Source: a virus
Virus record (IMG/VR): IMGVR_UViG_3300038678_000052
Coordinates: 1 to 42,866 of that record
Strand: one strand, 5' to 3'
Length of the DNA stretch: 42,866 nucleotides
The translations under genes were made by a program, and so were the position numbers. Of this stretch, positions 35,454 to 40,507 are shown piece after piece; the stretch's first letter is position 1, and each line of letters begins with the position of its first letter. A model generated the notes under the pieces. It was given only the letters and a program-made list of their open reading frames with translations. It was not told the origin of the DNA and ran no database searches.

Positions 35454-35762
35454 TTAAAGCCATTTGGCTTCGTCTTTCGGCCACCAAGTGACGCACAGCC
35501 TGTTATTGCACAGCTTGCATCTGACCGGCTCGCCCTGCTCTACTGAAATCCCGCGAAGGTCTGATAAGCGTCGGGCCGCTTCGTGACGATCCAAGCCGGT
35601 TATCTTTGCGATCTTCGCAGATGAAGCGCCAGGGTTGTTTTCTACAGCCTCCCGGCACTTCTGATTGTTCGTGTGGCGGGTTCCCGTAGTCGTAACGCTA
35701 TGCGCCGCTAGATGGCTTGTGTCTGGATCTGTGTTCCGTGCTGCTGGTGTTTGTATGTTCAT
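35454..35762 (-). CDS. Winged-helix-like DNA-binding protein
   Basis: A 102-residue protein. Residues about 20-70 (NQKCREAVENNPGASSAKIA, KITGLDRHEAARRLSDLRGI) form a MarR/winged-helix-like unit in which GLDRHEAARRLSDL is the recognition helix. The C-terminus contains a CxxC (RCKLCNNRLCVTW) that may bind zinc. It overlaps the methyltransferase stop by 4 nt. Probable transcription factor of this block, by inference. Confidence 0.7.
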   Translation of the reverse strand: MNIQTPAARNTDPDTSHLAAHSVTTTGTRHTNNQKCREAVENNPGASSAKIAKITGLDRHEAARRLSDLRGISVEQGEPVRCKLCNNRLCVTWWPKDEAKWL

Positions 35763-36583
35763 GCTGCCTCCACTGCCATAATTGCTCTGCCGATTGCTTC
35801 GGGTATCTGTGGGACTACTGCATTGCCTAGTCGTCTAAGTCTGTCCAACCTACGGGGAACCCCATCATTTGCTCCACAAAGCGGGGGCTCGGATAGATTG
35901 AATCGCTCTCGGACTGCCTCAGAACTTCGCATAAGTTCGATTTGTTGTTTAAGATGGTGCGCGACTTTGGCGAGCCTTTCGCATCGCTGAGCGTTGGCGT
36001 TGGCAGAAACTTTAATTCTGCTAGAGCCTTCTCGAGGTTCCTGTTTTTGTCGTTTAATCGATTCTTGCTCGCCGTTCCCGTCATCCCGCAGCGTGGGGTA
36101 GGCAATAATCCAGCCTCTATCCCTGTGGTGGGGTGCGCCAACGTAGGCAGCCGATATACGGTGCCATTCAGCATCAAACCCGATCTCGGCCAAGTCATAG
36201 AGAAGCTTAGCGAACCATTTCCCTGACTCTCCAGTAAACAGCCCTGCGACATTTTCAAGAATTGCCCAGCGGCATCCACTCTCGCTAATAATTCGCAGCA
36301 TTTCGAGATATAAGCTGGAGCGCTCGCCGTTAAATCCGGCCTGATTTCCGGCTTGGGATAAGTCTTGGCAGGGGAATCCTCCGCATACAACGTCAACTGT
36401 TCCTCTGTACTGTGTTGCATCTAAAGTCCTCACATCTTCGTGTATTGGCACGTCCGGCCAGTGCTTTTTCAGGACTGCTTGCGCGTGTGGCTCGAACTCA
36501 CAAAACGCAACCGTTTCCATTCCTGCGCGCTCAAGGCCAAGGGAGAAGCCGCCGATTCCACTGAATAGGTCCAAAACCTTCAT
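35759..36583 (-). CDS. DNA cytosine-C5 methyltransferase
   Basis: A 274-residue protein. Motif I (DLFSGIGGFSLGLERAG, residues 5-21), motif IV with catalytic Cys (GGFPCQDLSQAG, PCQ at 71-73), motif VI (ENV at 110-112), motif VIII (HHRDRGWIIAYP near 152-163) and motif X (GNAVVP near 253-258) are all present. The target recognition region is short (about 70 residues), so the enzyme is small for the family. No cognate endonuclease is seen; the role is probably protection from restriction. Residues about 55-252 are dual-coded with 35827-36420. Confidence 0.92.
   Translation of the reverse strand: MKVLDLFSGIGGFSLGLERAGMETVAFCEFEPHAQAVLKKHWPDVPIHEDVRTLDATQYRGTVDVVCGGFPCQDLSQAGNQAGFNGERSSLYLEMLRIISESGCRWAILENVAGLFTGESGKWFAKLLYDLAEIGFDAEWHRISAAYVGAPHHRDRGWIIAYPTLRDDGNGEQESIKRQKQEPREGSSRIKVSANANAQRCERLAKVAHHLKQQIELMRSSEAVRERFNLSEPPLCGANDGVPRRLDRLRRLGNAVVPQIPEAIGRAIMAVEAA
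35827..36420 (-). CDS. Gene overprinted inside the C5 methyltransferase (+1 frame)
   Basis: A 197-codon open frame lying wholly inside the methyltransferase gene on the same strand. Its ATG at 36420 has its own Shine-Dalgarno GAGG at 36431-36428, 7 nt upstream. The product has features of a real protein family: FSMTWPRSGLMLNGTVYRLP, then TTGIEAGLLPTPRC, FLPTPTLSDAKGSPKSR, and a C-terminal PRFVEQMMGFPVGWTDLDD. To my memory, standalone phage proteins annotated near dcm genes carry the same W-P-R-S-G...RLP, LPTPTxxDA and (F/W)VEWMMGFPxGWTDL blocks. No catalytic motif is visible. Function unknown. Confidence 0.65.
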   Translation of the reverse strand: MQHSTEEQLTLYAEDSPAKTYPKPEIRPDLTASAPAYISKCCELLARVDAAGQFLKMSQGCLLESQGNGSLSFSMTWPRSGLMLNGTVYRLPTLAHPTTGIEAGLLPTPRCGMTGTASKNRLNDKNRNLEKALAELKFLPTPTLSDAKGSPKSRTILNNKSNLCEVLRQSESDSIYPSPRFVEQMMGFPVGWTDLDD

Positions 36584-38911: not shown

Positions 38912-40507
38912 TCACATCCTCACTGCTTTAAGTATTACAACGTCAACAGACGCACCTTTGAATTGATTTTCATGCGCTTGCGACCAGGTAATATTCATGC
39001 CCGGCAAGACATCTTTACCCGCTGCGCTGGAAGGTAGAATCGCAACCAGTACCCCGTCAGTTTTCAGCATGCTTGCTGCGCGTTCGATATGCGCTTGCCA
39101 CCGACCTTGACTGTAAGGAGGATTCATAACGATGCGGTCAAAATATATTGTAGATTTCCACTCCAAAAAATCAGCCTGCACAACGTAATGACCTTTTTGA
39201 TCCAAAGCTCGACAATGCAGTTCACTAACTTCGACGCATGTGACCGAATCGCAAACAACCATGTGATCCGCCAGCCCCCCGATTCCTGCTGACGGCTCAA
39301 GACAGTCGTGAGTCTCGTTAATACTGGCAATCTCAACAGCTTCTTTCGCGATATGTTCAGGAGTTGGGTAAAACTGGTGGCTTTTTTGATCAGGGATGCA
39401 GCCAGAGCAAATAATATCTTTGATAACCGGCATAACGTCGTATGAGAACTCAAACCACGAAGCACCTTTTTGCGTAAATTTCACGCCGCCTAGTAAGGCC
39501 AACACTTCTACGGCCTCAGCCAATACGTGCTTGTCTTTGTCTCCGTAATAAAACTGAAGCGAGTTTTTGTTTGTTGTTAGCGGTTCGATCTCTTCAAAGC
39601 CCCGGCCCATCTTATTTGTCCGCATTTGCTTCATACCGCCGAGCATATTAAGAACAGCAAACGGGAGCGGCTTATCCATTAGCGTGTATTCACGTTTCTT
39701 GCGCGCTGGCTTCTGCCTGAATCTTGACGGGATTGCAGACGGGTGCAAATGGGCCATAACTTGATTAAGGCGCCACGCCATATCTGGATGAACTTCTAAG
39801 TGAGCATTACCGTTTAAATAACAACGGACTCTCAGCGCGCCGCCATCCACAGTTACCCAGTCGCCCCGATGATATGTTCGAGCATGCTCTACAAGCTGAT
39901 TGCTTGAGTTATAACCTGGCTCATCACGGCCCATAAATTTAGCAATCACTGTGCGAAGATCATTAACTTGACCAGTTTTATCACGCCCATAACTACCCCA
40001 GCTGTCAGTCACGCCAGTTAAGATCATGCGCTTGCTGAAACCCTCTGGCTGATTTGTTATATGCGCCTTACTCAGCGATTGAAATATGCCGTCTACTTTC
40101 TCGGCAAGGAAGTCCATGCGCTGAGAGAGAAGACTGCTAAGAGTTGACCTGACTGTGGCTTCCTCAAAATCTGGAGTTTCCATTTTTGTGATGGACTCGA
40201 ACCATTCCTCGCGTCGTTTTGACGGCATGAAATCAAGCACGTCAGTTAGATCAAGCGCGATTTTCCAGAAGTTCGAATTTAGAGCGCTAATAGCTGGCTT
40301 TGCGTCAAAACTAGGCGCCTCACGATGCCTACCATCAATATTTGACCCAGTTATGAAGTATCCGAGCGCAGCCCCGAAGTCTTTACCCTGAGTGTACTCA
40401 GCGGCCCGCTCAATACTTCCGAGACTGGATTTATACCGGTCTATCAGGCCGTCTACCATGTCGATATTTGATGGTGCGAAAAACTCTGCTGATTCCAGAT
40501 CGCTCAT
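38912..40507 (-). CDS. DUF4942 / N6-adenine DNA methyltransferase fusion
   Basis: A 531-residue protein. Residues 1-330 carry the DUF4942 region (IDGLIDRYKSSLGSIERAAE-like start, FWKIALDLTDVLDFMPSKRR, LMDKPLPFAVLNMLGGMKQM). Residues 330-531 are a gamma-type methyltransferase: motif I LEPSAGIGG near 403-411, acidic VEVSELH near 438, catalytic NPPY at 462-465, and VLVAILPSSAAGK. It should modify adenine. No restriction partner is present. It lies in the replication block, overlapping the next upstream gene by 4 nt. Confidence 0.87.
   Translation of the reverse strand: MSDLESAEFFAPSNIDMVDGLIDRYKSSLGSIERAAEYTQGKDFGAALGYFITGSNIDGRHREAPSFDAKPAISALNSNFWKIALDLTDVLDFMPSKRREEWFESITKMETPDFEEATVRSTLSSLLSQRMDFLAEKVDGIFQSLSKAHITNQPEGFSKRMILTGVTDSWGSYGRDKTGQVNDLRTVIAKFMGRDEPGYNSSNQLVEHARTYHRGDWVTVDGGALRVRCYLNGNAHLEVHPDMAWRLNQVMAHLHPSAIPSRFRQKPARKKREYTLMDKPLPFAVLNMLGGMKQMRTNKMGRGFEEIEPLTTNKNSLQFYYGDKDKHVLAEAVEVLALLGGVKFTQKGASWFEFSYDVMPVIKDIICSGCIPDQKSHQFYPTPEHIAKEAVEIASINETHDCLEPSAGIGGLADHMVVCDSVTCVEVSELHCRALDQKGHYVVQADFLEWKSTIYFDRIVMNPPYSQGRWQAHIERAASMLKTDGVLVAILPSSAAGKDVLPGMNITWSQAHENQFKGASVDVVILKAVRM

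Follow-up and report, generated by a model that had tools for sequence, protein, structure and literature searches.

One or two restriction-modification enzymes were previously known to have nested DNA methyltransferase subunits. Lee, Kam and Shaw are said to have reported in 1995 that the small subunit of M.EcoHK31I is encoded within the gene of the large subunit, in the other frame. Most C5-methyltransferases are single chains, and M.AquI and M.EcoHK31I are natural enzymes made of two chains (PMC3404938). In M.EcoHK31I (YGGCCR) the large subunit carries motifs I-VIII and X, only motif IX is found in the small one, and both form the enzyme (PMC3404938). M.AquI (CYCGRG) similarly consists of two polypeptides, and the smaller includes motif IX together with a portion of the recognition region (PMC3404938).

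The DNA analysed here, referred to as the window, is the whole IMG/VR virus record IMGVR_UViG_3300038678_000052, 42,866 bases long. It hosts two overlapping frames on the minus strand, denominated alpha (outer) and beta (inner), which feature the following elements:

35759-36583, minus strand: alpha ORF, a C5-cytosine DNA methyltransferase of 274 aa, with the large catalytic domain, motifs I-VIII and motif X
35827-36420, minus strand: beta ORF, 197 aa, in the +1 frame relative to alpha and fully nested in it
36428-36431, minus strand: GAGG Shine-Dalgarno sequence, 7 nt before the beta ATG (36418-36420)
36112-36420, minus strand: N-terminal half of beta, including TWPRSGLMLNG, overprinted on alpha motifs IV-VIII
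35887-36111, minus strand: putative target-recognition region of beta, with LPTP modules; an unconstrained spacer in the alpha frame
35836-35886, minus strand: motif IX of beta, PRFVEQMMGFPVGWTDL, located by hhalign and by co-linearity with M.HhaI
36362-36382, minus strand: alpha motif IV, GGFPCQD, with the catalytic Cys; G69, F70, P71 and C72 are invariant in an alignment of 96 sequences
36248-36256, minus strand: alpha motif VI, ENV; E and N are invariant in the 96-sequence alignment
36116-36139, minus strand: alpha motif VIII region, GAPHHRDR, conserved in the 96-sequence alignment
35807-35830, minus strand: alpha motif X, LGNAVVPQ, in the alpha frame, at and past the beta stop; conserved, with a C-terminal helix of pLDDT >90

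The genes around the locus are ordinary phage genes, encoding terminase subunits, a NinB-like protein and a primosomal protein. A second putative DNA methyltransferase, 531 aa long (PHROG 6263, E 4.5e-181), is encoded at 38912-40507 on the minus strand. Alpha matches PF00145 (E 9e-48) only over positions 1-181 of the 324 of the profile, and also PHROG 363. No match to beta was found in Pfam or NCBIfam; the family label comes from a profile match to PHROG 1008, 'DNA methyltransferase' (E 2e-23).

Judged by the described motif layout, M.EcoHK31I is the closest known enzyme to the pair. As in M.EcoHK31I, motifs I-VIII and X are all in alpha, and the small subunit, not the large one, has motif IX; reportedly also as in M.EcoHK31I, the ORF of the small subunit is inside that of the large subunit, here in the +1 frame. 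The likeness is one of layout, and the window pair is a phage enzyme of unassigned specificity. Moreover, selection data place the recognition segment of the window pair in beta, whereas the recognition domain of M.EcoHK31I is predicted to sit in the larger subunit (PMC3404938), which counts against recognition by beta; the placement in M.EcoHK31I is, however, a prediction from the literature and is not part of its defining layout.

As in M.AquI, the window enzyme would be distributed over two polypeptides, the small one hosting the putative recognition region and motif IX. Unlike in M.AquI, where beta has also motif X, in the window this motif belongs to alpha, inside which beta is nested completely. 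The M.AquI arrangement, with both IX and X on the small subunit, is found in the relatives L204, L190 and L211. Phage Samy, L204 and L190 are closer to M.AquI in layout than the window is: alpha stops after motif VIII, and the recognition region, IX and X are all held by betas homologous to the window's beta family (E 2e-31). Genes gp55 and gp56 of Paenibacillus phage Shelly belong to the same family and are also nested in +1. Gp56 is annotated as 'g55 internal gene' and otherwise only as hypothetical, with no link to motif IX or to a subunit. In respect to single-chain enzymes such as M.HhaI and those of PF00145, the large domain of alpha is the same and motif IX of beta matches in position, but two overlapping polypeptides take the place of one. 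Literature searches on gene overlap in phage cytosine methyltransferases returned nothing relevant, and among the papers accessible none was found that reports the breadth of the nested family seen here.

It is well supported that the locus belongs to a known type, the nested two-subunit C5-methyltransferase, and is not a family born de novo that left standalone descendants. The preliminary description had suggested that the inner protein may represent the ancestral overlapped state of standalone relatives, later copies of it. This idea is not supported by a search for inner-protein matches not overlapping a methyltransferase: all the 80 viral loci selected by the inner protein overlap a methyltransferase ORF, and no standalone beta away from a methyltransferase was found among them or among the bacterial loci inspected. 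Even in the least overlapped cases, phage Samy, L204 and L190, the split halves lie next to each other, and motif X is carried as well.

All C5-methyltransferase motifs had been assigned to the outer frame in the preliminary description, and in this respect it has to be amended. The outer frame holds motifs I-VIII and X, and the complete I-X series which PF00145 enzymes carry in a single frame is not found there. Alpha has no motif IX, and the C-terminus of beta, PRFVEQMMGFPVGWTDL, is motif IX of a C5-methyltransferase. In several actinobacterial relatives, among which L199, L200, L205 and L207, a block reading RLSPxFVEWLMGLPxGWVT...LLGNGVVPQQ is encoded in the methyltransferase's own frame. 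The beta profile aligns by hhalign to this in-frame block of single-chain enzymes (E 5e-9), and the single-chain profile lines up in turn with residues 271-307 of M.HhaI, RKLHPRECARVMGYPDSY...FGNSVV, which correspond to motifs IX and X; the latter alignment is co-linear, with a low score if taken alone. In the single-chain relative L205 the match to PHROG 363, the alpha family, covers nearly the whole length, and the in-frame C-terminal half matches PHROG 1008, the beta family (E 2.7e-47). The sole PDB match of the beta profile, to DNMT3C from the TRD to motif IX, is suggestive only, being not significant (E 1.9).

In the AlphaFold2 model of alpha (pTM 0.80) the large domain and the motif X helix are confident, and much of the spacer is of low confidence. 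The top Foldseek matches to this model, M.HhaI and M.HaeIII, extend over about 163 columns and include the large domain only, the first of them, M.HhaI, fitting at 1.6 A. Beta modelled alone is poor (pTM 0.28), with the exception of the surroundings of motif IX (pLDDT 87 for residues 181-190), and no meaningful fold match to this poor model was obtained with Foldseek. Such a result would fit a subunit that folds on its partner, and proves nothing.

We assign a probability of about 0.8 to the reading that a two-subunit C5-methyltransferase is produced from one stretch of DNA, alpha and beta being read in two frames. Alpha, folding as the large domain with motifs I-VIII and X, would provide cofactor binding and catalysis. 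Beta, translated from its own Shine-Dalgarno sequence and ATG, would supply the small domain, made of the target-recognition segment with the LPTP modules and of motif IX, and the two polypeptides would assemble into the active enzyme. Position and selection suggest that beta is the target-recognition subunit. The two chains plausibly bind each other, and both would be needed for methylation; the enzyme presumably modifies the phage DNA, as a protection from host restriction. The two-subunit reading draws on the homology of motif IX of beta, on the alpha model limited to the large domain, on the frame selection and Shine-Dalgarno data reported below, and on the existence of two-chain enzymes in nature (PMC3404938). 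The poor beta model with no fold match, the E value of the DNMT3C match and the low lone score of the M.HhaI motif IX alignment were counted against it. An outer ORF cloned or modelled alone would be devoid of motif IX, and probably correspond to an inactive enzyme.

Beta might alternatively be a separate accessory protein, alpha being active alone; it would then regulate or inhibit the methyltransferase, or act against restriction. The N-terminal half of beta is in favour of this, as it has no equivalent among single-chain enzymes, resembles no known fold, and is conserved in every beta, even in relatives carrying motif IX in the alpha frame. An accessory role is nonetheless improbable, because alpha is left without motif IX and the small domain, which C5-methyltransferases need, and because motif IX of beta is homologous to the in-frame motif IX.

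The frame under selection changes along the gene. Before the start and after the end of beta, alpha position 3 varies most. Over motifs IV-VIII, no beta stop was found in 99 sequences, versus 172 expected, and beta identity is 0.374, versus the 0.251+-0.0016 that the alpha proteins and codon usage would give (shuffle test, 99 sequences); one glycine of WPRSG reaches a conservation of 0.96, versus 0.27 expected. Since stops are missing and identity is above that forced by alpha, the N-terminal half of beta codes in both frames. A reduced synonymous variation of the outer frame, to be expected if the inner gene is real according to the preliminary description, was also observed over motifs IV-VIII; the suppression is real, though modest and partly regional, and the shuffle test is the stronger evidence. 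From motif VIII to the beta end, differences amount to 0.31 at beta position 3, versus 0.13 and 0.11 at positions 1 and 2, respectively. The excess at beta position 3 recurs in 24 of the 25 independent pairs that were informative (p=1.5e-6). The pairs were compared in frame-neutral DNA alignments, which replaced an alpha-guided alignment that blurred the frame test of the recognition region in distant pairs (23/42). Because substitutions are concentrated at beta position 3, in this second half beta is constrained, and alpha is a spacer that needs only to avoid stops. The birth of the inner family from the alternate frame of the enzyme, as first proposed, is accordingly to be restricted to the N-terminal half, overprinted on motifs IV-VIII; the C-terminal half is the enzyme's own target-recognition and motif IX segment, where the outer frame is the passenger.

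The shift of the selected frame from alpha to beta and again to alpha within the gene is what could be seen if a programmed frameshift fused the alpha N-terminus and the beta C-terminus into one long enzyme. This is very unlikely, since beta starts independently, behind a Shine-Dalgarno sequence, and its conserved N-terminal half overlaps motifs IV-VIII; motif X being back in the alpha frame, two opposite shifts would moreover be required.

Openness of the inner frame was evaluated in an unbiased set of 80 loci, the window and 79 others retrieved with only the outer protein as query. The interval scored began at approximately residue 22 of beta and ended at the MGFP motif, and within-gene synonymous codon shuffles were taken as the null. 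The +1 frame is open in all 80, versus about 3.6 expected, and contains no stops, versus 293.5 expected; none of 81 loci has an open +2 frame. Of 144 loci, 89 have a Shine-Dalgarno sequence and a +1-frame start ahead of motif IV, versus 22.8 expected. The beta frame is coding and under selection. The 197-codon inner gene at 35827-36420 is hence real, as had been proposed from the window; its GAGG, 7 nt before the ATG, is at 36428-36431, the blocks of the inner protein originally quoted are all present, and the stop codons in many strains which would have spoken against the gene do not occur in the 80 loci over the interval scored.

Single stops are found within the first 20 or so beta codons of L060, L115 and L158, where a downstream start is possible. 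Both frames are open across the match in 79 of the 80 viral loci selected by the inner protein. In the exception, L164, one stop interrupts the alpha frame before motif X, and beta is open for 350 codons. L234 and L235 are apparently frame-disrupted. Three distantly related methyltransferases (L243, L244, L250) lack beta motifs and have stops in the +1 frame.

That the inner ORF is a computed shadow of a conserved methyltransferase, with no functional protein, has next to no probability: outer motifs alone force some inner conservation, the null identity being already 0.25, but the absence of stops, a beta identity far above the null, selection of the second half of beta in the inner frame, the excess of Shine-Dalgarno sequences and starts and the stops in the three distant methyltransferases all contradict it, and stop counts, the +2 frame, identity and selection tests rule it out for the family.

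Relatives were identified by tblastn in 154 phage records, with 24-38% identity among the matches listed. The phages involved infect Microcystis, Synechococcus, Lacticaseibacillus, Mycobacterium, Stenotrophomonas, Paenibacillus, Bacteroides and Vibrio, and contigs hosting the family have been assigned to Myxococcales, Planctomycetes, Acidobacteria, Gemmatimonadales, Actinomycetota, Chloroflexi and others. The same nested design is found in phages and prophages of cyanobacteria, Bacillota, Actinomycetota, Pseudomonadota, Bacteroidota and others, and mostly one frame only is annotated.

Organization varies among relatives. In the group of L199, which includes L200, L191 and L192, the selected frame moves from alpha to beta, at the recognition modules, and back to alpha for motifs IX and X. 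In the L205 group selection acts on alpha over the whole gene, and the conserved N-terminal half of beta is still open in +1. We are inclined to distinguish four architectures: single-frame (L205 group), modules only on beta (L199 group), modules and IX on beta (window type), and modules, IX and X on beta (phage Samy); any order among them would be conjectural. The family is probably large and ancient, with two subunits and a handover between overlapping frames that slides, modules, IX and X being on either chain according to lineage. It would rank among the most widespread long same-strand gene overlaps of phages, the selected frame switching inside one gene. Across the family one overlap has been moved between frames, and this natural series makes the origin and persistence of long same-strand overlaps testable.

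L205, L207, L208 and the viral loci L213-L241 are single-frame enzymes, with motif IX read in the alpha frame, and their +1 frame mostly keeps the conserved N-terminal half of beta, as a relic or a short beta. An extended beta starting with MSWLFSQALVEEYL was found in L127, L118, L119, L128, L148, L150, L151 and L161. In this class a strong Shine-Dalgarno sequence is mostly located near the alpha start, and beta therefore overlaps nearly all of alpha. Several tandem WPTP/FPTP-like modules are present in the betas of L016, L039, L070, L075 and L079. The repeated LPTP modules of long relatives may represent several recognition elements, comparable to those of multispecific phage methyltransferases. 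A beta-like match with 39% identity, with no listed gene beneath, was also detected in the megaplasmid of Methylorubrum extorquens AM1 (NC_012811.1, 731252-731638).
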